Part shown: piece by piece, positions 15,279 through 48,600 of the stretch
How positions within the stretch are numbered: the stretch's first letter is position 1
Layout of the letters: each line of letters starts with the position of its first letter
DNA from: Rhizophlyctis rosea
Taxonomy: Eukaryota > Chytridiomycota > Chytridiomycetes > Rhizophlyctidales > Rhizophlyctidaceae
DNA: 64,000 nt
Direction of reading: 5' to 3'
Assembly (NCBI GenBank): GCA_027596075.1
Contig: JADGJC010000192.1
Coordinates: 7,638 to 71,637, forward strand
The notes under the pieces: generated by a model
Told to the model about the DNA's origin: nothing
Database searches by the model: none
What the model saw: the letters and a program-made list of their open reading frames with translations, nothing else
Made by a program: the position numbers and the translations under genes

Positions 15279-16868
15279 CTACTCCACCCCACCTACACCC
15301 CCTCCCCCCCGCGGCCCCCACCCCCCCCCCAAAACCCCCCCCCAAACACACCAACCCCCACCCCCCCCCCACCCCACAGTCCGCCCCCCAATCCACGCCC
15401 CAAAAGCACTCCACCCACACCCACCCACACCACCCTCTTCCCCCTCCCTCTCACAAACCCCTTTCAACATCTCATACCTCCTCATCATCCACTCATGCCT
15501 CCTCTTCCCATCCTCATCACCTTTTCCCTCCTCAACAACACCTTCAATCCCCCTCCACAACTTCTCCAAACACACCGGACATAGGTACGGCGGTATCCTC
15601 CCATCCTGCGCTATGGAAGAAGTGCCTTGCATCAAGCAAGCGTAGTATACACAATGATCCAATCCGAAAGTGTGGAGGATTTCGTGGGTTAGGGTGCGGA
15701 GGAGGCGGAAGTGGAAGGAGGGGGGTGTGTGGTGTGCGTTGGAGGTTCGTGTTGAGGTGGAGTTGGATGAGCGGTAGGCGGCGACGGCGAGGGATAGGGG
15801 CGTGATGGGATTTGTTGTTATGTCGAGTAGAGCAGGGGTAGTGTATGGTGCGTCTGTTATTCCCCTCTTGCGTTTCTTCCCTTTTGTCTTTTCGTCATCA
15901 TCATAATCATTCTCCTGACCAGTTTGTCTTACGAATTCCCAGCAATGACTAGCAGGCCATTCATGTTGTGCATCTACGTCTTCAGGAGGCTCTACATACC
16001 TCGCGCCGCTCACAACTGCAACGCGGTCGCCACCGTATGCTCGTCCACATATGAACTCGTCGTCGTCGTCTTCAAATAGATCATGCTGTGTCAGGAGGGT
16101 GATTGAGTATGCATCATCTGGGATTGAGGTAAGAAGCCCGTCAATGAGATCAGGCAACTGGAGTTGGTGAGAGTACAGGGAGGAGGCAGGACGGGAGCGG
16201 GTGCGGATTTGTGTGAGGGTTGATGGGGGAGTTAGGAGTGCGATTTTCGGTGTAGAGCGGGATTTAGTGTTTTGATCCCACGAGGTAAAGGATAATGGCG
16301 GAGATAGGAAGTTGACAGGTAATGGGCAAAAGAATGCCGAGAGGTAGTTTTGGATAGTTTCAAGATCGATGGTTGCCGGCTCCTGTGCGACAGAGCTCAC
16401 CTTTGCTTTCTTCACCTGTGATGATTTCTGCTCACGTGGAGGACTCCATCCCGTCATAAAACTCACTTCCTTCCCGATAGTTGGAGGTGGAGCAATATAG
16501 ACTGTCTTCCTTTCCTTCGTCACCTCATTTCGGTTCTTGTCTCGTGTCCAGCTTCTCAGTGATTGTGGAGGGCGTTTACGGTCAAGTGCCAAGTCATCAT
16601 CAGGCAAAGCTAGAGGACCGGGGAATGTGGAGAGAGGTGGCTCGATTGAAGGATCAGACTGGGGCAGATCGGCGTACGATGGTGAGCTCTTAGATGGTGC
16701 TCGACCCGAAGGGAAACGGGCGGCGATCCGCTTTTCGGCTAGCAGACGGACGAAATAGTTGAAGGTTGTTTGATGATGAAAGTCTAGGGCGAGAGTATTA
16801 TGGCGGCAAGGAGCATCGTCGGTTCTGACCATCTTTGCCGAATGATAGTGAAATCGCAAGAAGAACAA
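15279..16868 (-). CDS. Archaemetzincin-type zinc metalloprotease
   Basis: Predicted zinc aminopeptidase/protease of the archaemetzincin (AMZ, peptidase M54) family; substrate unknown. A single uninterrupted frame of 529 codons carries the signature HEILHTFGLDHC at about residues 395-406, then C411-x-M413 and C430-x-x-C433. This is the M54 pattern HExxHxxGxxHC-x4-CxM-(16-17)-CxxC: three zinc-ligand His, catalytic Glu396 and the second four-Cys zinc site. The N-terminal half has family-like stretches (LPDLIDGLLTSIPDDAYSITLLT) and charged insertions (FEDDDDE, KGKKRKRG). The last 50 or so residues are an odd Gly/Trp-rich tail read from a C-rich homopolymeric tract, which could hide a sequencing frameshift. 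A second possible start is at 16832 (MVRTDD). Confidence 0.9.
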   Translation of the reverse strand: MFFLRFHYHSAKMVRTDDAPCRHNTLALDFHHQTTFNYFVRLLAEKRIAARFPSGRAPSKSSPSYADLPQSDPSIEPPLSTFPGPLALPDDDLALDRKRPPQSLRSWTRDKNRNEVTKERKTVYIAPPPTIGKEVSFMTGWSPPREQKSSQVKKAKVSSVAQEPATIDLETIQNYLSAFFCPLPVNFLSPPLSFTSWDQNTKSRSTPKIALLTPPSTLTQIRTRSRPASSLYSHQLQLPDLIDGLLTSIPDDAYSITLLTQHDLFEDDDDEFICGRAYGGDRVAVVSGARYVEPPEDVDAQHEWPASHCWEFVRQTGQENDYDDDEKTKGKKRKRGITDAPYTTPALLDITTNPITPLSLAVAAYRSSNSTSTRTSNAHHTPPSFHFRLLRTLTHEILHTFGLDHCVYYACLMQGTSSIAQDGRIPPYLCPVCLEKLWRGIEGVVEEGKGDEDGKRRHEWMMRRYEMLKGVCEREGEEGGVGGCGWSAFGAWIGGRTVGWGGGGGWCVWGGVLGGGWGPRGGGGVGGVE

Positions 16869-16899
16869 ATTCCAATCCCTCCTTCAAAGTTCAAAGTGG

Positions 16900-23599: not shown

Positions 23600-25190
23600 G
23601 CGGGGTGGGAAATGGCCACTGTTGACCCCTGTTACTGGCCTGTGACCCAGAGTGAGGCTCAGACAAGATGGCTGGTTCATAGCAACTTTGCATGAAAGGG
23701 AAGTCGAGGGAAGTCAGTGGAAGACCAGGAGGCCTGGATGGGTGACTTTTGGGGCTGTAGCAACTGGGGGGGTAACACTGTGCTAACAGTCAGTCAGTTG
23801 TAGAGTGATCACAGCGTGGCATGACGTTGTTTCAACCAGGGTGTAGTATCAACAGACCAGGCCCATGGAACATTGGACCCGTCCAGCATCCAGGGTGACG
23901 TGTTCCATATTTGGCACGTGGGCGGGACACATTGGATGGCATTCATTCGCAACTTCCCAAATCGGGTTATATTGTGGCGTGCTGGGGCCAATCGGGGAGC
24001 GAGGCTGAGTTTGGAGGGTCCCAACCAAAAACGCGCGATTCAGGGTCCATAGGGTCCAACACCAACCCTTTGCAGACTTTGAAGACCATGATATTGAAAA
24101 AGCCAACACAGGTCCAGGTTGAAAGTGAAATGCTTACGAAGTCTAAATGCATGATTCGGCGTGCAAGTGATGAGCAAAGAATCGGACGCTTTCTGCAGGT
24201 AGTAGCCAGGGCAGGAAAACCTGTACATGGGTATGTCGCACAGAATGCGTCTGAATAATTACACCTCCTCCCTCAACGCAATCCTGCCGTGCAGCCTGCC
24301 GTGGGGTGTTTTTGCCATTTTTCGCTTCAGATGCTGCTTGCGTTCCTGGGAGCACTTTGCCTCACCCAATTCTCTCATTGTTCCGCGTTCGTGAAACATT
24401 GAAGACAAAAAGTTGTTTGAGATCCTTCGGGGGCCACCATTGACGACCCATCCATTGGTTGCCGACGGAGGCCGCTTGACCACCGTCGCATGCGCGAATT
24501 CACATCAGGATCATTTCAATCCTCAAGGGTGCGCGCCTTGAAAACCAATGAGGCGTCTAAACTCGAAGATTGACAAGGCCGTCCAACATCCAATCAGGCG
24601 GATCACCTGCGAAGCTCATTTCTAGAGATTGGGAAAAAAATGAAACCGCTTAGAAAACCAAGATACAGCTCCCATCAGCCCTGATATTCCCCCGACGTAA
24701 GAAATGGTACTACACCTGATGGTTTGACGTGACCTGCTGTCGATGGTAGGTTCCACTTTGACGTGGACTTGCTGAAAATCACGGGGAGAATGCAAGCTGC
24801 CCATCGTCCAAACACAAGATCATGGTGTTTGAACAATTCCCTAGGACAGTTTAGGCAGGTGCTCTCCCGCAATTTGAATAATTGAATCATGGCTCGTTCG
24901 TCCTCGTCTGGTTTCCTTTGAAAAGTCAAATGCGCGGAGGATTCAACAAAAAAGATTACCACCAAGCTGGTATCACAGATCCGATGGCAGACCCACATGC
25001 TCGGGATCCCACTTTTCTGAATGTGGCAATTGATCAGATTGTAAAAGCATTTCTGCTAGCTCGCGGGATCGCGCAATCGTCATTGCCATCAAGAATTGGC
25101 ATTAATCAAAGGTACCGCCATTTAAATTCACCTATGTTCTTCATGATCAACCTTGACCAGGTGAATGTTCTTCATGATCAACCTTGACCG
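23600..25190. other. Intergenic stretch without recognised gene
   Basis: Short frames only. The right end (25,138-25,190) contains a 31-bp sequence present twice in tandem, just before the left end of repeat copy A. Confidence 0.45.
25138..25190. repeat. 31-bp tandem duplication
   Basis: A 31-bp unit beginning TTCTTCATGATCAACCTTGA occurs nearly twice in direct succession (second copy partial). It sits immediately left of repeat copy A. A different 31-bp unit is duplicated the same way beside repeat copy C at about 36.64 kb. Confidence 0.8.
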
Positions 25191-25199
25191 TGGCTTAGA

Positions 25200-26890
25200 G
25201 GTTTGGATCCTGACCATGATGTGCCCCTTTTTTTTGGCGAATAGTGCAAGTGAAGGCGAGCTCCGTCACGCTACAGCCGACGAGGGTGGATCAAACAACA
25301 ACGATGCTAGGAAAGCGGGAAAAACGAATATCGACCAGCTCATTGAGGATAAGCGGTCCCCTCATCCCACGCAGTTTACGCGTTTCGCCGCTACCTTCTG
25401 TGGCCAGTTCATCCCGACTCTGGATTGAAAAAGATAACGCAAATGCACCAAATTCGATGCGATGCCTGCGTCAGGGTGACAATATGTGCGCATCACCGTC
25501 GCACTCAACATAAGGTCGGGGCGCCCTACCCTACATGGGACGTACACTGAAGGGCTTCTCACACGCCTATCGCTTTTTGCGACGTATATGGCTCGTCTGA
25601 TGCTCAAGTACCTGTGGGCTGCATTACCCAACACCACGTCATAGAAAATCCAACAGCGACCGTGGTTCGCACTTTAAACCTATACAATGAAAGAGATGAC
25701 CGACACCGTCCTAATCCGAATCATACGAGGCAGGTATAGTCGCCGGGGTCGGAATTTGATCTCACCGATGGTTGGTGACCATCCTGCCTGTTTCAACCTA
25801 TGATCAAAAAAGAATGACCACGAAGGAGTTCCTTGGACTGACGGGATGAGGCAAGCCCGCACCTGCCAAATTGGTTGCGTTATCACAATGAATATTGCTG
25901 ATAGCGGTTGGTTCGAACACTCAACGCCAAGCTCTCGCCGTGCCTCGCAACAAGATTTGGCCCCGACACTCGGCCTGGTGATCATACCACGAATTGGACA
26001 CATTCAACATCGTGGATCGGTCCAAGGCGCTCCTCATTCAACCAAGACTTCTTCAACCGTATCACTTTTTGGCCAGCTACGCGTACTCAGTTAGCGGTTA
26101 TGCGTTTGAATATATTCTGACACTTTTGTTCTAACACTTTTGATTCCAATCATCATGGCGATGAGGGTCTAACAGCTTCAAGCCCCCAAAAAGGAAACGC
26201 CCAGAAACTCACAGTCGAGCGACCACCCTCAAGGATCAACTAAGCAATCCGCTCGGTTTGCATACTTCCGCGGACGGTGTTGTGACATGTCAACTCGAAT
26301 ACATGAAACTATCCCATGTGCGTCACTTGGCTGCTATCGCTCTGCGGACATTGTGGCGTCATGAAGTCTCAACAGGAGCAGTGTACGGTATAGTCTCACA
26401 GTTGCTCAACAGCCTTAGTAGTAGTTTGCCGCAAAGGCCGAGTGAATAGGAGTGATCCACAATGCGCAGAATTTCAAACATCGCCTGCCTTCCCTTTCTC
26501 ACACCAAGCGGTCTTGTGGACCTATCGTCGACTTTGAACCTGGTAGTATATGTCTCTTTTGGATCGGGCGGCTATTTGATTGTTGGATTTCGCACGTGCA
26601 ACCGGTTGCGTTCGCAAGTTACCCTTTTCACGGTGGCTAATTGGGGATCATCTGTCCTGTGCTGGCAGTACCTTTCTTTTCACCAGCACGCCCGCTGCTT
26701 GCCTGCACGCGTCTGACGACTCTGGCCTCCTTTAGCACGATCAGCACCTTCAGCAGGTCATAACTACGTCGGCCATGCGAGCTGATGCGAGCTGATGCGG
26801 CTGAGCGGAAATCCTCCTACCCCGATTCAGAATACAATTTCCCCAGTCCTTTTATGGGCGATATACTGAAATGGATTTCATAGAACCGAA
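25200..26890 (+). repeat. Degenerate repeat, copy A (continuous, empty-site form)
   Basis: Aligns by eye, with many substitutions and small gaps, to copy B over about 25,200-26,262 and to copy C over about 26,264-26,890. Shared landmarks with B are ATCACCGTCGCACTCAACA, CACGAATTGGACA/CACGAATTGAACT, CGAGCGACCACC and ATCCGCTCGGTTT. Shared landmarks with C are CTTCCGCGGAC, GGAGTGATCC, GTCACTT and TGGCTAA. Translated pieces of A and B share similar peptides (PRIGHIQ / PRIELIQ), so it may once have been coding. No terminal repeats were found. Confidence 0.75.
26772..26806. repeat. 11-bp tandem repeat
   Basis: The unit GATGCGAGCTG is repeated about two and a half times within the right part of repeat copy A. 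Confidence 0.7.
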
Positions 26891-27749
26891 AACCAACCTG
26901 TGAGCTTGACCTCCTTTCATCAACAGTCATCAGATGCTTCTGATTGCTTTTTTTGGACATGGACAATGTGATGGGTCTCAGACGTCTCAATAGATAGCGC
27001 GCTTACAAGAAGTAAGCATTGAAACCCAATCTTCGGACGGCAATTTTTGGCAGTGATTGCGGTCATTGCTACAATGTTGCATCATTGCGAGGGATCAATT
27101 GGATGTTGACAATGATCGTGTGGGACTTCAGTCCGTCACAACCGAGTGTACATTGATGACAGTCTCGTATGTGAAACGGCGACTTTGGGGCAATAAAAAC
27201 CGTAGCAGATCCCATCGCAGCTCGGAAGACCATCAAGAATTTTCTTGCCAATTCCATTGGTGGGGTAAGAAGACATATTGGTAATACCAATCTTCCAAAG
27301 CTGGGGGCTCCAGAGTTTGCCGGATTTCTAAGCTCTGACCATCGGAGTAGCGAGATGCTCACCATTACTGTAACTACTTCACCGTCGTACTTGAAGCTTC
27401 TGGACCATCAAGTTATCCAACGGACCCGTCATGCGACTTCGTTCAAAATTTCTTATGTTCGACGTATTTTTTCTGAACTAAAGGCACTTCGTCAAACCAT
27501 ATCGGCTGCATTTGAGCTACCGTTTCATTATGAGATGAATCTTTGCGATTGAATAGAACCTCCTGTTTGCAGTCGCTGGCGAATCCCAGTACCCAAGGCA
27601 GTACATTGAAGCAATTTGCCGAGTCAGTCACACTGGCTCCAGTGGTCGATGTTCATGTCATTCTTCATCGCGTTGGTGTCAAGAAGTGGCATGGATCACA
27701 GTATCTTGATCCACATCTTCCTTGTGTGCACTTCAGACTCAACGTCAGC

Positions 27750-28866
27750 CGTTGCTCACATGGTGTCCTCTCCAGTACATCTCTTTTTTTCTGGCGAACG
27801 ATGTTCATGCAGAAAGGTTGAGTCAAGGTCCATTGATACACAATTCAGACGGGGTGAATTGACAACGATAGCAAAAAACCGAAAAAGGAATCTTTACGAA
27901 ATTCGTGGGGACGAGCAGTCCGCTCATTTCACCTACTTTGATGCAACTGCTTTCGCGAACTTGGCGAGTTGTCCCAAATCCGAGTCGGGAAGTGATACCT
28001 ACTTGCGCGCGCGACAGGTAATTCAGTTGTCATGTAGACAGCTGTGTCACGGTGTCCCGTACCAGTGTGACGATATGGACACATCACCGTCGCACTCAAC
28101 ATGTCAATTCAATTAGGGGCATACCCTACATTGGACCGGTGACTGACGGCTTTTCACTCGACTATTGCTTTTTGCGACAAAAGCTTACCGGATGTTAAGT
28201 CGAACATGAGTCGCATTAGTACCCTAAAAACTCAAGTCGAAGAAAGGGCAAAAAGGCTCCAGCAATGCATAGGCTTGATTTGAAGATCAATGAAGGAATT
28301 CAACACTGTCGGATGGTCAAGGCAAGTGCTGTTGCGACACATCAGAATCTCCTCCCACTAATGGCTGTTGACCATGCTGCCTTCTCAGTCCTACGGCGGG
28401 CAAAAAGACAATGACATGATGAGATGTTTGAATACGACAGGATGAGCGCAAAGCCGCATCAGCCGATATGATTTCGACATTGCAATGAGTCGTTGCTGAT
28501 CGCGGCTGGTTCAATTGCTATTCGCCAAGCTTTCAAATTGCTCAACTTCTCTCGCAAAAAGATTTGGCCTCCACGCATGTGTTAATACCACGAATTGAAC
28601 TGATCCAACGTTGTGGATTCGTCCAGTGGGCTCCTCATCCAACCACAACGCTGTTCACAGTGCGACTTTCCCCGTGGACTGTATCACTTTTTGGCCAACT
28701 GCACGCACTCATTTAGCAGTCATGCGTCCGAACATATTCCGACACTTTTGATTTCAGTCATTGTACAGGCCAGTGGCGGTGATGGTCAAACCCCCAAAAT
28801 TGAAGCGCTCCGACACACAACCGAGCGACCACCATCAAGGATCACCTGAGCGATCCGCTCGGTTTC
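27750..28866 (+). repeat. Degenerate repeat, left half (copy B)
   Basis: Homologous to the left two-thirds of copy A and in the same orientation. Similarity is still clear at GAGCGATCCGCTCGGTTT and stops within a few bases, at about 28,866. There the open frame of the SbcD-SbcC fusion takes over. The missing right part of the repeat reappears at about 36,011 as copy C. Confidence 0.75.
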
Positions 28867-31800
28867 CAAATGGATTAGGGACGAACACATTCTTGTCCGA
28901 CCCCGGCATGTTTTCTTCCTTGGAGACTCACTGAACAATCGACGAGGGGACCTTACTGCTCTCCGTGCTTTCAAACAGCTAGTGGACGACCTTGCCGACA
29001 AGAGCTACCCATGTCAGGTACACATCTTGGTCGGCAATCACGACATGCAAACGCTGTACGACCGAGAAATGAGCACACCACCGCTAGTGGCCCATGACGC
29101 AGCCGGAATTTTTGCATACACAAAAGTCCAGAAGGTCTACATTGATGAATTTCCTGTTCTTTTTTTACCGTGGCATGAGAACGCTGAGGAGCTCCTCCCA
29201 CATCCCTCGGAGCATTCCGCCAATGAAGACGCGGCGGAGACAGTTGTCATGGGGCACATCGCTCTGAATGGTGCCCGCTTGACTGGCTGGGACCACGGCG
29301 GGAACGCCCCGGGATCCCACGACAACAGTTCCGTTCTCACCGCAGCGCACTTCACTGCCTTCAAGAAGATGTTTTGTGGCCATTACCACACGTATGCACA
29401 TTACGGTGAGGACAAGAAGGTCACCTACGTCGGAGCAACCGCGATGCAAAACCATGGGGACGCCCACTCTTCTGAACGGGGTTACATCCTCTACAAGCCG
29501 GACACAGGGCATTCCTCCCTGGTGAGGAACCCGTACGCCGTTCATTTCGTAGACATATATTGTCACGATATTCTGTCCGGCGGTCTGGACAATGAGAAGG
29601 TCAAGCACAAGCAGGTTCGCTTGCTTGTCGATGAGAGGACCACCATTCACCAAGAATCACACGCACTTGCAGTGATCAAGCAAGGTGACATCGCCAACGT
29701 AAAGGTAGTCCGCCGACTCCGGCCGCACCATGCTCAGACCGCGCAGGAGCCGAGCGCGGGCGATCGGCCGGTCGAGAATCCGCGGGACTTTCTGCAACGG
29801 CTTTCTTCCCACTTCGTGCGGGATTGCATCCCCGCAGAGCACCAAAGCGAAGCACTCACGTACATCAGCGAAGTCATCAGCAAGGAGGTCCACGAGACAT
29901 CGCGGGAGCTTTTCCGTGCCGATGTGGCCACGGTCCGCGTGGTGAATTTCCTAGGCATCCACGGGAGGAAGACATTCAACTTTGGCAATTTGAAACCCGG
30001 CTTGTGGATGATGCTTGGTGAGAACGGGGCAGGGAAGTCACAAGTGATCGACGCCATATCATGGTGTCTGTACAAGGAGACGTTCCGAGAAGTCTCAAAA
30101 GACGAAGTGAGGAACAACGCAGCATCTTCCGGGGCCGAGTGCTCTGTGACGGTCACTTTTGCAAACCATGTGGTCGTGAGGAGGACGCTGACAACCCTGC
30201 ATGTCACCAAAGCGGATGGCAGTGTCGTGGAGAACGGAAGCATAAAGCACACCCAGCAGGAACTGGAAACGCGGATCCTCAACTGCGATTGGGACACCTT
30301 CAAAAGGAGCATTCTCCTCGACTCCAACGATTTCCTTTCTCTGTTCTCGGGCAGCGACAAGCAGCGGAACATCGTCATCGAACGCCTTCTCGGCATGGAG
30401 GTTCTCAACACCATCTCGAAAACAGTTGAAGAAGACGCTTCCCAGATGTCTGTTGAGCAGGCGAAGCTATCTCCAGATCTGACTCGGCTGCAATTCAAAA
30501 TCGAGTCCCTGGAGGAAAGGCTTCTGAAGGACACACAGGAGGCAGACAGTTTGGAGAAGCAGCTCCGGGAAATTGAATCGACATTGGGTCAAGAAGAAGC
30601 ATTCGCTCTCGCCGACGGAAAGGAACAGACTGCCCTGAAAGGAAGGAAGGATGGTCTCCAAGCGACAGCACAAAGGGTACAAGGAGCCTTCGACGACATG
30701 TTGGGAAGGTTTAATCAAGCTCTTGAGGCTTCCACGACGGCGCGGACACAGGTACTTGCGATCGAATCCTTGCACGATTCCTCGGCGATGGAAAGGGATG
30801 ACTTGACGGGAAGAGTCACCCTGGCACGGGAGACCGTGGAGTTGGCGTTGACGGAGAAGGCTACCGTGAAGGAGGAGCTGCTCAAAGCCGAAAGCACAAC
30901 CGGAAGACTCGCAGAAGAATTGGAAAGGATGGAAGACCTGGGCACGGATCTCAGGAACCGTCACAATGACATTGGGGTTCGACTGGCCGAAGCGAGAGAT
31001 CAAGTGGCACGTCATCGGGATGAGACCCTCCGTTGTATGGGTCAACTTGCACAGGAGGAAAAGTCGGAGCTGGCTTGTGTAATACAGCGTCAGACAGAGC
31101 TTCACCGAGAGCGTACCGAATGGAACCGAAAAGTACGTGAGCAGAAAGCGGCCAGGTTGGAACAAAGGCGGAAGAAGAGGCTCAGTGAGGAAGGTGCAAG
31201 GACTATGGTCGAGAAGTTCCGGAGCGAAGAGAATGAATACCGTAGGCTACTGGATGACTTCAACGCACGACAGCATGAAGCGGCCAAGCTGCAAGAAAAT
31301 CTCCGGCAGCAATCGGAACGCCTCGCCATCCCACGCATCATCGAGAAGGCTCTCTACCATGCGGAAGCCTCCGGTAACCCGAAGACTATCATCGGCATAA
31401 CGGAAGACGTGATTCAGCCCCTCAATGAGATCCACGATGCAATGGGTCGCTCTTGCGCTCCGGCGTCCCTCCCCGAACAAGGCCTCATTGACAGGCTTCA
31501 GGAAAACCTTAACCACATCACCATACAGGGCCCGCCAACAGCAGACAAGCTCTACTCTATTCAAGAAGATGTGCGCTATGCTGAGGCTTTGTGGACCGCA
31601 GCACGGGGGGAACTGGACGACGATGTGGAAGAGGCGGGGGAAACAGCAACCATACAATGGGATATTGAGCTGACTGGGCTGGGCACTCATGCTGACGGTC
31701 TACGAGTGAGGGTTAGTGATATTGAGAGGCGGTACAGACAGGAGCGAGAGACCGAGCAGGGAATGCTCATGTCCTCGTTGCGTTCCTTCTCGGAAGAAGA

Positions 31801-32902
31801 GGATGAGGGGAAGCAGCTCCTCTGTGCTTGGGAAAAGGAGTTCCGCGAACTCAGAAAGTCAGTCCGGGACAGCGGGACGGATAGGGACCACCTAGCCGAA
31901 CACTTGGCGGCTTGTTCTTCCAAAGCCGACGCTGCAGAGGCACAAGAATGGAATCTCCAGGAGCTCCTCCGCTCGGCCGAGAGCCGAATGGTTTCCGACG
32001 AAGAGATACGTCGCTTACGTAATCTTGCAGAAACCATAGGGAGGGAGCTTGCAGACATAAACGGGGTATTCACGTCACTGCGAGCACGCCTCGATGAGAA
32101 CGCCCGGTTGTTGCATGAACTTGACATGGATCTTGAGAACTCCAGGAAGCGCGTGGCAGAGCGCAGGGAAGTCATCGTGCGATTAAAGGGTGAAGGCGAT
32201 CACGCGCGGAAGCTGCTACATGATCTTGGTGATGACATCTCTCGGGGACATTCCGAGAAGGTGGCCCTTACTGAGGAGTCCACCCGGCTGTCTTGCTTAC
32301 TGGAAGAGCTCCAGAAGAAGCATTGTATCAGGCAGATCTGGAAGAATGCTCTGGCCACTACCAACGACACGTCAGCAAGATCAAAGGCGAACTTGCAGCA
32401 AAAGGGGTCCTTCAGGCAACTGTGTCGAAAGGAGCATCTTTCCTTTCTGCAGACGCGGTTCGATGAGGTCCTTGCTCTCCTGAACGACGGCAACCGGGAC
32501 CCAAGGCTTGCCTGCAAACTCTCAGAGAATTTTCAGTTTCACCCGCAAGACGGTCAAGCCGTGGCCTTTAACCAACGAAGCGGCGGAGAGAAGAAACGGA
32601 CTATTCTAGGGCTGCTCTTTACCATCATGGAGACCCTTGTCACACACGGTTCCATGCGACCAATGATCCTGATGGTCGATGAGGTCCTTGAGCAAATCGA
32701 CGAGGCCGGACGGACCAGCGTTCTCCGCTACCTGAAACACTTCACGCAAGAGCACCGGTCACACCGCGTCATTCTCATCACCCATTTGGAAGTTCCCGTA
32801 GCCTGTGCTGGGACTATTCAAGTAACTGCGGAAGGACGATGGCGCCTTCGCAAGTACGAAGCCGTGGCACATGACGGACGCAAGCTGGACTTCGACACTT
32901 GA
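28850..32902 (+). CDS. SbcD-SbcC (Mre11-Rad50-type) fusion: nuclease joined to SMC-like ATPase, 5' incomplete
   Basis: One intronless frame of 1,350 codons. Known families: SbcD/Mre11 cuts DNA ends and hairpins; SbcC/Rad50 is its ATP-driven coiled-coil partner; they are normally separate proteins. Residues 1 to about 260 hold metallophosphoesterase motifs: GD (25-26), GNHD (62-65), GH (135-136) and GHYH (177-180). The ATPase follows: Walker A GENGAGKS (390-397), long Glu/Arg/Leu-rich coiled coil (about 530-825), a less helical middle (about 825-930), second coil (about 985-1180), signature SGGEKKR (1244-1250) and Walker B LMVDE (D1277-E1278). No CxxC zinc hook is visible. The frame opens at 28,850 and its first ATG is only at 29,045, after GNHD. 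The first metal motif (D-x-H) and a proper start are therefore missing or in an unseen exon. Its style suggests transfer from a bacterium or virus (inference). Confidence 0.88.
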   Translation, partial: AIRSVSKWIRDEHILVRPRHVFFLGDSLNNRRGDLTALRAFKQLVDDLADKSYPCQVHILVGNHDMQTLYDREMSTPPLVAHDAAGIFAYTKVQKVYIDEFPVLFLPWHENAEELLPHPSEHSANEDAAETVVMGHIALNGARLTGWDHGGNAPGSHDNSSVLTAAHFTAFKKMFCGHYHTYAHYGEDKKVTYVGATAMQNHGDAHSSERGYILYKPDTGHSSLVRNPYAVHFVDIYCHDILSGGLDNEKVKHKQVRLLVDERTTIHQESHALAVIKQGDIANVKVVRRLRPHHAQTAQEPSAGDRPVENPRDFLQRLSSHFVRDCIPAEHQSEALTYISEVISKEVHETSRELFRADVATVRVVNFLGIHGRKTFNFGNLKPGLWMMLGENGAGKSQVIDAISWCLYKETFREVSKDEVRNNAASSGAECSVTVTFANHVVVRRTLTTLHVTKADGSVVENGSIKHTQQELETRILNCDWDTFKRSILLDSNDFLSLFSGSDKQRNIVIERLLGMEVLNTISKTVEEDASQMSVEQAKLSPDLTRLQFKIESLEERLLKDTQEADSLEKQLREIESTLGQEEAFALADGKEQTALKGRKDGLQATAQRVQGAFDDMLGRFNQALEASTTARTQVLAIESLHDSSAMERDDLTGRVTLARETVELALTEKATVKEELLKAESTTGRLAEELERMEDLGTDLRNRHNDIGVRLAEARDQVARHRDETLRCMGQLAQEEKSELACVIQRQTELHRERTEWNRKVREQKAARLEQRRKKRLSEEGARTMVEKFRSEENEYRRLLDDFNARQHEAAKLQENLRQQSERLAIPRIIEKALYHAEASGNPKTIIGITEDVIQPLNEIHDAMGRSCAPASLPEQGLIDRLQENLNHITIQGPPTADKLYSIQEDVRYAEALWTAARGELDDDVEEAGETATIQWDIELTGLGTHADGLRVRVSDIERRYRQERETEQGMLMSSLRSFSEEEDEGKQLLCAWEKEFRELRKSVRDSGTDRDHLAEHLAACSSKADAAEAQEWNLQELLRSAESRMVSDEEIRRLRNLAETIGRELADINGVFTSLRARLDENARLLHELDMDLENSRKRVAERREVIVRLKGEGDHARKLLHDLGDDISRGHSEKVALTEESTRLSCLLEELQKKHCIRQIWKNALATTNDTSARSKANLQQKGSFRQLCRKEHLSFLQTRFDEVLALLNDGNRDPRLACKLSENFQFHPQDGQAVAFNQRSGGEKKRTILGLLFTIMETLVTHGSMRPMILMVDEVLEQIDEAGRTSVLRYLKHFTQEHRSHRVILITHLEVPVACAGTIQVTAEGRWRLRKYEAVAHDGRKLDFDT

Positions 32903-35532: not shown

Positions 35533-35988
35533 TCAAATCTCCGCATGTTGGTTCAAAAGACCTAGGGCCAAGTCGGTGACCCGAGCACGGAAATCATTAC
35601 GAGATGCGGGTGGACCTTTGTCCTCATCCACCATGATGAAACGCACGACGCTCAACAAGTCAGCCTTGCGGTATAGGGCTACATACGCTTGCTGGTGGTG
35701 CTCGCCGCATTTTTCCGCATACCCCGTCGTTGCCACGCCTACGTCTGTTTGGAAGAGATTACAAACGCCTTTTGCCATCTGCGCCGCTACGTCTCCAGAA
35801 ACGCAGTTCGTTGCCCTAGCCAAGTCCTCATCCACATTCAATTGGTTGACCTTTGCGGCAAGGCTGTACGTCACCACGCCGCCCTCATAATAAGCGGAAG
35901 ATCCACTTCGAGATACGATCTTGCTGCTGACCATCCCGCCCGTCAAAGATTCTGCCACTGCAATCTTTTGTAAGTCTCTTTTGCTCAT
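35533..35988 (-). CDS. CinA C-terminal-domain (PncC-type amidase) protein
   Basis: The family in bacteria hydrolyses nicotinamide mononucleotide to the acid form plus ammonia, in pyridine nucleotide salvage. This 151-residue single-exon protein is one such domain: AVAESLTGGMVSSKIV near the start (family AESCTGG, with Cys replaced by Leu), YYEGGVVTYSLAAKVNQLNV (conserved Tyr-Ser...Lys), VSGDVAAQMAKGV and DVGVATTGYAE. The usual GPxGG stretch after the last motif is replaced by YAEKCGEHHQQ, as I would expect of a eukaryotic subfamily. The ATG at 35,988 is only about 22 nt from the start of repeat copy C, so any promoter must lie in repeat sequence. Enzyme activity is inferred. Confidence 0.8.
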   Translation of the reverse strand: MSKRDLQKIAVAESLTGGMVSSKIVSRSGSSAYYEGGVVTYSLAAKVNQLNVDEDLARATNCVSGDVAAQMAKGVCNLFQTDVGVATTGYAEKCGEHHQQAYVALYRKADLLSVVRFIMVDEDKGPPASRNDFRARVTDLALGLLNQHAEI

Positions 35989-36010
35989 TTTTGTTCAATC
36001 ACTAGACGCC

Positions 36011-42310: not shown

Positions 42311-45300
42311 ATGTCTCTTCGTCGCTCATCACGCCGCTCCTCCCAACTCGCAACAGAATCCCTCGCAACAGGCATCCGTCGCACTCCTCGTGGGAGCAGG
42401 AACAGCAGTGTCAATGAAGATATTGACACCACGCCGGCACGGGCATACCGAGACGCGGCGGCGCACTCAGCTACGGAGGATGATGATGTTATTGTGTACA
42501 GCGGGACACCCGTGAGAGGGCGAGGAAGGAGCAGGGCAAGGGGCAATGGGAGCGCGAGAGGCCGAGCTGCGGGAAGGGGGCGCGGTGGAAGAAGAGCAGC
42601 CGTAGAAAGGAGTGACGAGAGTGAAGGGGAGGCGACAGATGAGAGGGGCGGAGGGAGTGAAGACCAAGAGCAAGAGGAGCAGGATGAAAGCGACAAGGAA
42701 AGCGTGGTGGAAACATTCAAGAAAGGCTTGAGGAGGATTTCGCGGGAGTTGACTCCTACACCGGTCTCTATACCAAAGAAAAGAGGTGGAAGACGGGTGA
42801 CAAAGGTGGTGGAAGAGAAGGAAGAGGAGGAGGAAGAAAGAGTGACCGTAGATGCTGAACTTGACGAGGACTTGGAGCCGCGACGACGGAGCGATGACGA
42901 ACTGGAAGATACAACCGGTCCTACGACAGTGCCATGGAGATGGGAATATGCCGGAGAAATTTACGACCAAATGCGGAACATCACATCCTGCTTCTGGCCG
43001 TTGGCCTTCTTTGTGGGTGCATTGCTAGGTACGTGCATGTCTTCTGTTCGATACCTAAAGATTGAAGGTGGTGGTTGAAGAAGCTAACATTCCATCTTTC
43101 ATATCCGCCAAATATCCCACCACCAGTTTTGGCAATTCTTGCAATCAAAGACAAAGATCTCTTCACTACCTGGCTCACTCCAGAATCCGCCTCCTTCAAC
43201 GCGAGTCGACGTCTCGTCAAACGCCACTTCTCCTCCAACAACCAACAACCACTCCTCCCCCAATCAAAAGGCCAGCCAGCCGCCTACCGCCCTTCAGACA
43301 TCTGGTCCACCACCCCGCACACCGGCACTTACCGCATCGTTGCTCTCTCTCCGCTTTCTCCAACCCAACTGGTCTTAACGCCCAGCAACATCCTCCTCCT
43401 CCTAGCGCGCGCATACGGTCTCCCGAAAATCATTACACCAGCAGAAGAGAAGATTCCCGTGAGCGCGGCGTATCAGTTAGAGAAGCTAGGGCAAGAGGAC
43501 GCGTACAGGATTTTGAGTGTTTCGAGCGAGGTTTGGTGTAGTGGTGGCGGTGTTCTGCCCGACGGGAGGATTGTGAGTGTCGGTGGTTGGGAGGTGAAGG
43601 ATGGGGAGGAGGTTTTGGGGGGTGGAGTGAGAATGTTTGATGGTGGGGAATGGAAGGAGGATGCGAAACATGTGTTTTTGCAGCAGCCTCGTTGGGGTGA
43701 GTTCCTTGCCTTTCAGAGTTCATGTACCACCTTTTTAAGTTCACGGCATTCAAATCACTACAGAATCAACTGTCATCCGCCTGTCAACGGGCGACCTCGC
43801 CATCATTGGAGGCACCCAGAAGCGTAACCCACAACCTTACATTGAGTTCCTACCTCCATCTCCTGACTGCCCCTTCGGCGCTGACTGTCTCATACCCAAC
43901 AAGCTCCTCAAGGAAGTTGATATGGAGGGTGTCCGCTTCCCCTTCGCGCATGTCTTGGCAAGCGGTTGGTTATATGTTCTTTGCATCTTTCTGTACCTCG
44001 GTGGTGACTTCGAAATTAACCGCTTAATTCACCATGTTCCATCTTGGTGCTCAGGTCGCATATTCCTCCTCGGCGGCAAGCAGTCCACAATCCTTGACCC
44101 AAGCAACCGCTTCCTGCCAGTCAAAGAAGGGCAGCATATCCCTCCGATCGGCATCTCGGATGAGGAGTGGGATGGTCCATCGCGGACGTACCCATCAGGC
44201 GGGACGAGCGTGCTATTGCCCCTCAGCAGCAAGAATGGGTGGAAAGCTGAGATTTTAGTTTGTGGTGGTGGTGCAAGGGTGAGTTATTTCGCAAGCATCA
44301 AGAGGGCATGCGATAACATACTGGTGCATTATTCACATATTGACGGATGTTGATATTATTGGCGTACAGTCTCCGGCAATGCCGAAAGTGCTTTCGACGG
44401 CACTCACGTCCTGTGGACGCATCTCACCGGAATTGGACAATCCAGAGTGGGAGTATGATGAGATGCCCAATCCACGGTTGGTGTCTTGACGTCAAACTCC
44501 CAAATGACTGGATGACAACTCTAACTACCCTTTCCCCCCTTCTAGCACGATGGGCACTCCAATCCTTCTCCCCGACCGCAAGCTTCTTCTTGTCAATGGT
44601 GCCCAGAAGGGAACAGCGGGATACAACGCGGCTACGAAGGCGGCATACGAAGCTGTGCTCTACGATATGGACGCCCCGCTGGGAATGAGGTGGAGGGTAC
44701 TAAATGGAACGGACGTTGCAAGGATGTGTAAGTTTTGTCAATGCTAGGCCCGTTTTCGCAATGGGTGTCCCTTGATCTGAGAACCTGATGGAACTCACTA
44801 CGTGTCCTGATTCTTCATCCCTGCAGACCACTCCACAGCCCTCCTCCTCCCATCCGCCGAAGTCCTCCTCGCCGGCTCCTCCCCAAACAAAAACCCAATG
44901 CACCCCGCATACCCCTACCCCTCAAACGAAGCCCGGCTCGAACTCTTCACACCTGCCTACCTCCAAACGGGTCGACCCCGTCCCACCATCATTACTGCAT
45001 CCCTCCGAACTGGACCAATCCCCTACGGTGACATGCTGAAATTCACAGCCACGCTACCCAACCGCCCAAGCGGTAACGCAAAGAGGCAGTTAGGCGTGGT
45101 GTTGGTGGATAATGGGTATTCGACGCATGGACAGGTGATGGGGCAGAGGGTCATTTCGTTGGATGTTGTGGCGGCTGAGAAGCTTGGTGAGGTGTGGAGG
45201 GTGGAGGTTGAGACGCCGCCGAGTGGGGGTGTTGCGCCTGTTGGGTGGTATTTGATGTTTGTGGTTGATGGTGGGGTGCCGAGTGAGGGGGTTTGGGTTA

Positions 45301-45338
45301 AAGTTGGTGAGTGGGGTGGAGCTGGGTGGGCGGCGTGA
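42311..45338 (+). CDS. Membrane-anchored glyoxal/galactose-oxidase-like kelch protein, cofactor Tyr replaced
   Basis: Copper-radical oxidase fold (glyoxal oxidase N-terminal plus DUF1929). Seven exons (42311-43028, 43127-43696, 43764-43964, 44055-44278, 44370-44476, 44546-44727, 44827-45338) join in phase to 837 residues. Residues 1-220 are disordered, first Arg/Gly-rich (RGRGRSRARG, AAGRGRGGRR), then acidic. One membrane helix (FWPLAFFVGALLVLAILAI, about 231-249, split by intron 1) suggests a type II protein with the oxidase domain outside. Family motifs: VWCSGGGVLPDGRIVSVGG (Cys377), DLAIIGGTQ, SCGRISPELDNPEW, ILLPDRKLLLVNGAQKGTAG, Y668-H669 (MYHSTALLLP) and H768 (YSTHGQ). The Tyr that crosslinks to Cys in active enzymes (family RWY) reads as Glu430 here (PRWES, spanning the exon 2/3 junction). 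Activity is therefore doubtful. Confidence 0.87.
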
Positions 45339-45600
45339 TGCGAGATGTTCGAAAGATTTTCCCGCACGGGATGAATCTGGGTAACATTTTTGCACAAGGA
45401 GCAGTTCTCATTCACACTTGCTTTTAATCTCTTCGAATAACTATACAAAACTTCCTCCTGATCATGTTTGGCATATCTCAATGAAAGCTCCAACCCTCAA
45501 AATGATGATGCACGATCATCGTCCAATACTGGGCATTCGCGATAGGGATGTCTCATGTGGCGGATGTGGAAAAAAAAATACCCTCGTACCGGTATGCAAT

Positions 45601-45673
45601 GGTTTCGTCCGGGATCGAACCGGAGACCTCCTGTGTGTTAGACAGGTGTGATAACCAACTACACCACGAAACC
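45601..45673 (-). tRNA. tRNA-Val: tRNA-Val(AAC)
   Basis: A 73-nt cloverleaf on the minus strand. The acceptor stem GGTTTCG pairs with CGAAACC. The D arm follows (GTGTAGTTGGTTATCAC), then anticodon stem CCTGT/ACAGG around loop CTAACAC (anticodon AAC), then T arm CCGGTTCGATCCCGG with the conserved GTTCGAT. No intron. CCA is not encoded, as expected for a nuclear tRNA. It stands alone in a gene-poor stretch. Confidence 0.95.
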
Positions 45674-45699
45674 TTAGTGTTGCACAGACAGTGTTTTTA

Positions 45700-48600
45700 T
45701 CTTATCACTGCTGTGCAAATTGTGAGCAATTGGACCTTCTTAGTGAAAAAAAAGGATAGCGTAGGATGACCATACAATCCGACCCATGATGTCCATGGAC
45801 ATGCTGGGTAGAAAGGTCCATGCTGGTTTTGTGATGACTACAGCGCGCCAAGCACACAGTGTGTTCAGTGCTCCACTGATCCCAGGGAACGCTTGTGGAA
45901 AGTCTTTTTGTTGCATTGCTGATAATACGTGGTTTCACCAAGCAAAGATCAAAAAGGAATCAAGCAGTCATCCCTATCGGCTCATTGACATAGACCCGAT
46001 TGCTCAGGTCATATGATGATTCCGTATGTGGTATAGTTTTTGGGGAACCTGTAGGGCAATCCATCGAGCTGTTAGTAAGCGCATTCTTCAAGGGATGCAT
46101 ACGACGTTTTGATTCAACAAGGGTTCTTTTGTCCTCCGGCTTTTGATGAGTACACGAAGAGCATGTGCAGTTTTGGTGATGCGGATGGAGCGCGCTGGGA
46201 ACTTGGGATGCGATTGTGAGGGATGGAAGAAGAATATTTTTAAGACCAAGATCAAGACATGACCAATTCTTTTTGGGAATTGCGCAGACGGGCGGGACCT
46301 TCAGTTCATTTTCATAATGTGAGCGCACCTCCACAAACCGGTGCAGGACGGTTTTGGTGGTCAACGGGTTTGTGGTGTCCAGAAGCTCCGCCATGTCCGG
46401 TCCGTGAAGCCGTGAGCGTCTCCTCCTCGGACGAAATCCGAAACGAAGTCCAACGTCTCTGGTGACGGAAGTGACAAATTTAAGAAGAAGACACAGACCT
46501 CACTGACATAGCCGGGAGCGAACCTTGTCAACAATAGACATCCGTACATCCAATTCCACCTGCCAAAGTTCGGTCACCGTCGGGAAGTCGAGGGTCGACC
46601 GTTGTTTAATCGCATGCTGTATCATGAACTGTCGTGTCAGATTTCTTCCGCCAATGGAAGTGCTTCACTTTTGGACAGAGGATTGCGTTCTTTGCAATTG
46701 CGACTTGTGAGCAGGTCACCCAGAGGCGTATTGCAAAAGGTGAGCAACATGCCTCTTAGTATGTGTGTTCGATTCTCTTCTTTTCCTTTTTGGTTCATCA
46801 GTCTTCTAGTGATGGAAAATTGATTGAACGCAAAAGAAGACTTGAGCGAGATCTTGTCCAAGGGAGAGATTGCAGAGATGCGATCCATAAGATCCATTCC
46901 GGTGGGGAGCGGTGTTTTAAAGCACACTGAACAACATGATCACGCGATTTTCAGATACAGCATGCAAGCCTTTGATGTAAGTTTGAGATCCAATCCAGTG
47001 GAAAGAGACAAAAAATGATGTGATCCAGGCTCTGTGCATCGCAAGTGGTGTCTCTATGGGAATTACTGACTGTTACCGTGAAGGGGTAACCCTATGCTTT
47101 GCTAGACAACCTTGGCATGTTATCGATGATTCACACATTCTGACCCCCCCCTGAAAGGAAGATCAGTTCAAACCCACACCAAAGATGAAGAATGTTCAAC
47201 ATCCTTTCAGGAGTAAGTTTCGAGGTGATCATTCAATCAGGACTTGAGACTACTCAAACTCTATTCATGATTTTGCATGCAGTCCCTGAAATACTTGCGC
47301 GGGAGTGACTTCTGGTTCAGAACGACGATCACTTCGGGCAAGCATTCTCAGCACCACAGGAGGATTAGGAGGCCTCAAACCGCGAGCTAGGACTTCCGAT
47401 ATATTATCGGTTCAGCTACTCCTTTTTTTTTCACTGGTTGTACCCACCACTCACACGATCGACTGACAAAAAAGAAGCCAAAAACACATCAAGGTAATCG
47501 CAATATACGGCATTTGCATCGTGAATGAATCATGGTCGAGATCTTCCTTGGAATCAAGTCATTTTGGAGGATCGCCACTTGAAACTTGAAATTGAGCATT
47601 TCTTCACGAATGTGTACGCTCATGAATGGATATCCAATAGCAAAAAGCAGTCAACGGCAGCTTCGACGGCAGATTGCACCGCGGAGGGGTTCATTTAAAC
47701 ACTTTTGCACATGGGATGATCCCCAACGAACGTGGCTGACCGTATGATTAATGTAGGAGTCGTTTGCTATATGCATCCTCTGCATGAGGGAATACTTGAT
47801 TCTTGGCGCATGGCACTGGAATTGCTCACAACATCATGTCCCACCGACGTCGGGGCGGCCGAAAACGAGGTCCTTGGTGGTTAGTGTGGTTGGTCGAGTG
47901 GATGTCGTGAGGTATCTGTCCCATGAGCCCCGCTTGTGTGCATCGCACGCTATTGCACAATGCATCACTGGAATTTCGAGGACCTTTCCTTTTTCGGAAA
48001 AGTAGGCCAGAGTAGACCGCCCGACATCAACGCAAGGAACGCAGATGGCGGGTATAATGACAGTGTAAGCAAAATCAAAAACCGGTGATGACCCCCTCCT
48101 GCCTAGGGCGGGCTTTCGACAACAAAGCAAGAAAAACGAGTCCAATCCCGCATCTGGTCGATGGTCCTTCAAATCGCAGCCATTGTAGGAGTGCAATGAA
48201 AGCCATGAAGATGTCGTTTTGGCAACCACCAGTTGCGTGGCTTCCAATACGCCCACCCTTCCCCGGTACATGAATCCAATCATGATGTGAGAATCTTGAA
48301 GATTTATATGACACGCATGTCCGAAAAAGAAGGTCATAAGTATGCCGATACTTGGACAAATAGAAACTAGCAAATGTGTTGCACAGAAATTACAGGAGAT
48401 TGAAATCTAAGGCGCTCATTGGAATCAAGAAAAAGTAAACTTAAAGTTGCCAGCTGACCGAGGGCTGCTGGAACATTGCTCTCTTTCGTCGCCCACTTTA
48501 CTCACTTTTGCCGCACCTGTTCCGAGCGCAGCGCTGCCCCTGGCACCAGTGCCCACCACAGCCAGCATCCTGCCCTCCTATTTCTTGGCTCATCCAATGA

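Follow-up and report, generated by a model that had tools for sequence, protein, structure and literature searches.

A single open frame in the chytrid fungus Rhizophlyctis rosea (GenBank assembly GCA_027596075.1, contig JADGJC010000192.1, positions 7,638 to 71,637; this 64,000-nucleotide stretch is referred to as the window) has an N-terminal Mre11/SbcD/gp47 domain followed in the same frame by a complete Rad50/SbcC/gp46 ATPase. The frame, on the plus strand at 28850-32902, runs from stop to stop over 1350 codons and is probably a fusion of the type of Mimivirus R555, with non-canonical gp47 and gp46 proteins of the phage or giant-virus type placed head to tail, carried in the nuclear genome beside ordinary MRE11 and RAD50 genes. 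The ATPase motifs of the frame are conserved, and the genome also has a canonical MRE11 and a decayed sister copy of the fusion.

The coordinates of the frame and the Mre11 and Rad50 motifs were as claimed in an initial annotation made from the sequence of the window. In the Mre11 half, GD is at residues 25-26, GNHD at 62, GH at 135, and GHYH at 177; in the Rad50 half, GENGAGKS is at 390, SGGEKK at 1244, and LMVDE at 1274. The single-chain SbcD-SbcC fusion proposed there is borne out by the presence of two domains in one frame: phrog_100 (SbcD-like) matches residues 20-269 (E 5.5e-30) and phrog_77 (SbcC-like) matches the remainder (E 2.4e-43). Pfam matches are AAA_23 (E 8.2e-14), SMC_N (E 3.1e-14), and, under its family cut-off, Metallophos (E 0.0016). 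The length of the frame is not due to chance, since 200 shuffles of its own 4050 bases, read in six frames, gave no open stretch longer than 292 codons. Codon usage correlates with that of seven neighbouring frames at r 0.53, compared with 0.35 and -0.07 for the other two reading frames. When five phage pairs are aligned, the end of T4 gp47 falls at residue 349 and the start of T4 gp46 at residue 356, and by this alignment two nearly complete proteins are joined by about six residues. Ahead of the Rad50 part is a region of the size of a capping domain and helix-loop-helix (predicted strands and helices, residues 211-356), and the helix-loop-helix corresponds to the Rad50-binding part in relatives. 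The Rad50 half has Walker A, signature, and Walker B motifs, as well as an ITH H-loop, spread over two lobes with a connecting coil estimated at about 580 residues; no CxxC zinc hook is present in any of the 1350 residues. That the join is an assembly error, or that two transcripts are separated by a hidden stop, is scarcely credible: the decayed copy has the same order and junction, with a frame shift, and the same architecture is described for other organisms (PMC3175470).

A check for normal MRE11 and RAD50 genes, proposed in the initial annotation, found both on other contigs of the host genome (44.1 Mb, 634 contigs). Canonical MRE11 is in pieces on contig C24, where one exon frame matches solved MRE11 at 3.7e-34. 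A RAD50-like gene on contig C290 has Pfam matches to the RAD50 hook and two to AAA_23 within 3 kb on one strand; two of its exon frames have no PDB match, and its assignment as the host RAD50 has weaker proof than that of MRE11. Other AAA_23 matches, on contigs C440 and C24, presumably belong to SMC5 and SMC2, whose motifs they resemble. The second fusion copy is on contig C215 (about 45062-46729, minus strand) and is 41% identical over the N-lobe. In this copy the frame is shifted in places and interrupted by an inner stop, and Walker A is altered to SPNGARKS. It retains the passage from helix-loop-helix (residues 305-345) to Rad50 side (from 346), with a frame shift; examination of 12.6 kb there found neither a phosphoesterase domain nor a C-lobe. 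A decaying second copy suggests repeated gain or duplication, together with loss.

Fusions of Mre11 and Rad50 (SbcDC) were described in 2011 by Yoshida, Claverie, and Ogata (PMC3175470). Besides Mimivirus (R555) and a Bacillus phage, the carriers given there comprise five bacteria and six eukaryotes; the eukaryotes include moss, slime moulds, a diatom, and green algae. The canonical pair is present in every cellular fusion host but one, and a viral source is proposed. These examples contradict the initial statement that known bacteria, phages, and eukaryotes encode the two subunits separately, and the idea of a categorically new fusion was rejected because such fusions had been published. The sections consulted list no fungus among the carriers, and literature searches with and without a fungal term showed no fungal case among the papers listed. 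The frame is one more member of the known Mre11/Rad50 fusions rather than a new kind, and extends to a fungus the patchy distribution of virus-type fusions among cellular genomes.

The likeness to R555 and the eukaryotic fusions is one of description, not of sequence. As described, these proteins also have an Mre11-like N-terminal and a Rad50-like C-terminal part in one chain, a capping and helix-loop-helix region with a short linker, and a long coil; R555 has 1351 amino acids and the fungal frame 1350. Their eukaryotic carriers likewise hold the canonical pair, and their presence is likewise sporadic. The fungal frame differs from them in its host and in lacking motif I (DxH) of Mre11. The T4-type gp47 and gp46 proteins (PHROG 100 and 77) have both domains in the same order and provide the best sequence matches, but the phage genes are separate (in each of five records one or two small genes intervene), the phage coil is shorter, and both DxH and CxxC are kept in all five aligned phage rows. 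Canonical MRE11/RAD50 and SbcCD share with the frame the ATPase motifs and, as modelled, the fold of the Mre11 half; however, the canonical genes are separate, the host MRE11 is in genomic pieces, and the host RAD50 has the zinc hook that the fusion lacks.

By phmmer, the fusion is closer to phage gp47 and gp46 than to either SbcCD of E. coli or MRE11 of the host. The Mre11 half matches the best phage gp47 at 1.1e-25, T4 gp47 at 7.1e-9, and E. coli SbcD at 2, and does not match the raw exon frames of the host MRE11. The Rad50 half matches the best phage gp46 at 7.6e-23, E. coli SbcC at 1.2e-9, and T4 gp46 at 3.6e-8. A search of the Mre11 half against the sequences of solved structures found no relative, while a structure model of residues 1-357 (mean predicted local distance difference test score 77.9, 57 sequences in the alignment) matches 19 PDB chains at E of 0.001 or less, all Mre11/SbcD, with template modelling scores near 0.5. 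Among the 50 matches listed from a viral structure library, nine viral proteins of 969-1389 amino acids match the model, a likeness that concerns the Mre11 part only: these are from Yasminevirus, Tupanvirus, Harvfovirus, Terrestrivirus, Pyramimonas orientalis virus, and Listeria phage LMTA-57, with three unnamed, and only the Pyramimonas virus protein is named as Rad50/SbcC-type. In PADLOC, 30 families match, all ATPases of defence systems (best LmuB, 5.5e-13), which is taken as general ATPase likeness. The proposal of an acquired phage or giant-virus DNA-end nuclease is thus supported as to type, by phmmer and the viral structure matches, and not as to donor; the nuclease itself is putative, since motif I is missing from the frame.

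The results that weigh against an acquired fusion gene of this type concern its origin, its 5' end, and the argument for selection. E. coli SbcC outscores T4 gp46 against the Rad50 half, and PHROG scores do not separate phage from bacterial type; PHROG E-values were set aside as proof of phage origin, as E. coli SbcD (2e-27) and SbcC (8.1e-58) match the same families. Viral loci were taken as the best 80 of each of two lists, chosen with profiles that include the query itself. Both genes are present in 152 of these 160 loci, always in the order gp47-gp46 and with frames at most 10 bases apart in 49, yet none is fused among open reading frames of at least 100 amino acids, and the two are separate in every one of the 152. 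Nine prokaryote contigs had no fused gene, and no relative was confirmed when the query was scanned by itself or together with the second fungal copy. None of 1163 matching phage records reaches 80% coverage of the query within a single region, and 80% is likewise not reached by any of 156 matching plasmid records. No donor emerges from the viral, prokaryote, phage-record, and query scans. An N-lobe tree also points to none. Its 33 rows comprise 30 phage gp46 proteins, the two fungal copies, and E. coli SbcC, with no other eukaryotic and no giant-virus row; the pairing of the fungal copies has support of 98/94 and, on very long branches, falls outside the phage rows.

The first ATG of the frame is at residue 66, past GD and GNHD, and motif I is absent from the frame as it stands; neither point was in the initial annotation. 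For both reasons, the frame in its present form is an incomplete gene. The DxH of motif I provides two metal ligands of the Mre11 nuclease. In structure alignments, model residues 1-3 pair with chain residues 22-28 in Pyrococcus furiosus, Methanocaldococcus jannaschii, E. coli, and Staphylococcus aureus, and the alignments begin at chain residues 30-42 in Thermotoga maritima and the eukaryotic entries (ranges only). Since the alignments begin at about residue 22-28 or later, the first strand, which carries motif I, is predicted to fall outside the frame. A scan for DxH on the plus strand from 24,000 to 28,990 found no motif-I exon. A scan for DxHxG/S/A upstream from 10,000 found four spots, of which 24954 and 28827 have no preceding hydrophobic strand; 10754 and 22077 do have one, but are 7-18 kb from the frame. 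None of 15 splice-compatible ATG exons between 26,300 and the frame (one donor pattern, two acceptors) has DxH. A motif-I profile was too narrow for use, with T4 at -26 and the host MRE11 at 5.6, both in the noise. A more distant or unusual exon may carry the motif. MAFFT placed DEH (residues 11-13) on motif I in the alignment used for the model, and a weak tblastn match (E 0.04, one phage) places it just before the GD strand; it was provisionally set aside as motif I, being 15 residues before the GD aspartate compared with 35-40 in five phage rows. With motif I absent and this limited exon search negative, the nuclease would be either completed by an additional exon or inactive.

The only repeats of at least 40 bases reported near the frame are two copies, both upstream of it, in which two blocks of copy 1 recur in copy 2 and differ there by 23% and 18% in ungapped columns. 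The copies are separated by 23 indels, 19 of them frame-breaking, and appear to be an old local two-copy duplication. DNA and pattern searches located the repeat at only two places in the host genome, and these lie on the same side of the frame; the DNA search recovered copy 1 at 68-74%. The initial annotation had placed the frame inside a split repeat; relative to these two copies, the frame is not in between but starts within the end of copy 2. That annotation had also suggested an undescribed element able to process its own ends. The repeat does adjoin the gene, and a nuclease/ATPase of a mobile element is nevertheless very improbable: no repeat copy was found on C215, the home of the other fusion copy, both copies in the window are on one side, and the ten frames scanned with Pfam, out of 56 of at least 150 amino acids in the window, gave eight with matches and no transposase, integrase, or other element gene.

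Copy 2 ends at residue 6-7 of the frame, near the onset of Mre11 similarity, and the codon preceding the frame is a stop in both copies (TGA in copy 2, TAA in copy 1). Either a rearrangement removed the start of the gene, or the copied piece ended by chance at an exon edge. It is possible, if less than likely, that the gene is truncated at its 5' end and in use, the rearrangement that placed copy 2 having removed the first 25 or so codons with motif I to leave a nuclease-dead, ATP-driven clamp or tether. This would be compatible with the identity of the fusion and concerns only the state of the gene. The end of the repeat, the start of the structure alignments in most bacterial and archaeal entries, the failure of the two scans and the splice test to find a DxH exon, and a frame that is still open with all ATPase motifs intact agree with truncation. 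However, short first exons are easily overlooked in a distant relative, the profile test is insensitive (T4 itself scored low), spots 10754 and 22077 remain candidate exons, and the copying of the repeat may have run in either direction.

At the drift rate of the repeat, 4050 bases should have gathered about 65 frame-breaking indels on a single branch. None is observed, which points to a fusion frame kept under selection; the argument presupposes that the repeat has been adjacent to the frame ever since copying. The same comparison bears on whether the frame is a nonfunctional remnant of an old viral insertion or of a gene duplication, inactivated too recently for its frame to have broken, with the C215 copy as a later stage. 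The decay of that copy and the lack of an early start codon would suit a relic, but 1350 codons have stayed free of frame shifts while the adjoining repeat copies gained many indels, and codon-usage correlation is highest in the fusion frame; a relic is quite unlikely.

For the R555-type fusion, a mechanism can be suggested by analogy with the Mre11-Rad50 head, in which ATP-bound heads clamp DNA and hydrolysis supports processive cutting by Mre11 (PMC13402864). The gene was probably acquired by lateral transfer. ATP would bring the two ATPase lobes together on a DNA end, and their opening upon hydrolysis would let the attached Mre11 dimer cut; the fusion would fix a 1:1 ratio of subunits. The nuclease step would need an N-terminal exon with motif I, none being found in the limited search; without it, clamping alone would remain. 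The role would be separate from that of MRN, with mitochondrial DNA as one guess; RecA (PF00154) was not found in the host genome (control positive, 14/14), leaving no RecA to accompany such a role. A fused viral-type Mre11-Rad50 without motif I and zinc hook, and selected for, could also be a single-chain, nuclease-dead, ATP-driven DNA clamp, that is, a laterally acquired SMC-like tether, although this is doubtful. If motif I is truly missing, a repair nuclease would have been turned into a pure ATPase clamp.

Table 1. Features of the fusion frame and the adjacent repeat, in window positions.
Feature	Position	Strand	Remarks
Mre11/Rad50 (gp47/gp46-type) fusion frame	28850..32902	+	1350 codons stop to stop; 5' end provisional
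Mre11 phosphoesterase motifs II-V, without motif I	28922..29389	+	GD 28922, GNHD 29033, GH 29252, GHYH 29378
C-terminal helix-loop-helix of Mre11 half, residues 311-349	29780..29896	+	predicted helices 311-326, 329-356
Junction, about six residues (350-355), aligned gp47 end to aligned gp46 start (T4)	29897..29914	+	
Rad50/SbcC N-terminal ATPase lobe	29915..30574	+	Walker A GENGAGKS 30017-30040
Coiled-coil arm, without CxxC	30575..32329	+	limits estimated from alignment
Rad50/SbcC C-terminal lobe	32330..32899	+	SGGEKK 32579, Walker B LMVDE 32669, H-loop ITH 32777
Repeat copy 1, two aligned blocks	25472..26262	+	82% and 77% identity to copy 2, ungapped columns
Repeat copy 2	28063..28868	+	final 18-19 bases inside fusion frame

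Several other features were seen in the window and the host genome. A search of the genome for the capsid of nucleocytoplasmic large DNA viruses (PF04451), run without a positive control, found none. Two separate matches to the flagellar gene IFT46 (C4:91086-92047 and C238:14880-15808) could be explained by duplication, by haplotypes, or by the assembly containing a second organism. The window has a fungal-specific transcription factor domain (24.7 bits, cut-off 23), which together with IFT46 makes a flagellated fungus of chytrid type the likely host. Between 57000 and 60000 the window has GC content of up to 0.58-0.61 with strong GC skew and repetitive frames; a short run of undetermined letters is near 59.3 kb. 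A long intron-free frame at 15279-16883 (minus strand) matches M54 peptidase (E 1.4e-7). The CinA family is best known from bacteria, and a CinA C-terminal domain is present at 35533-35994 on the minus strand (Pfam CinA, E 1.7e-29).
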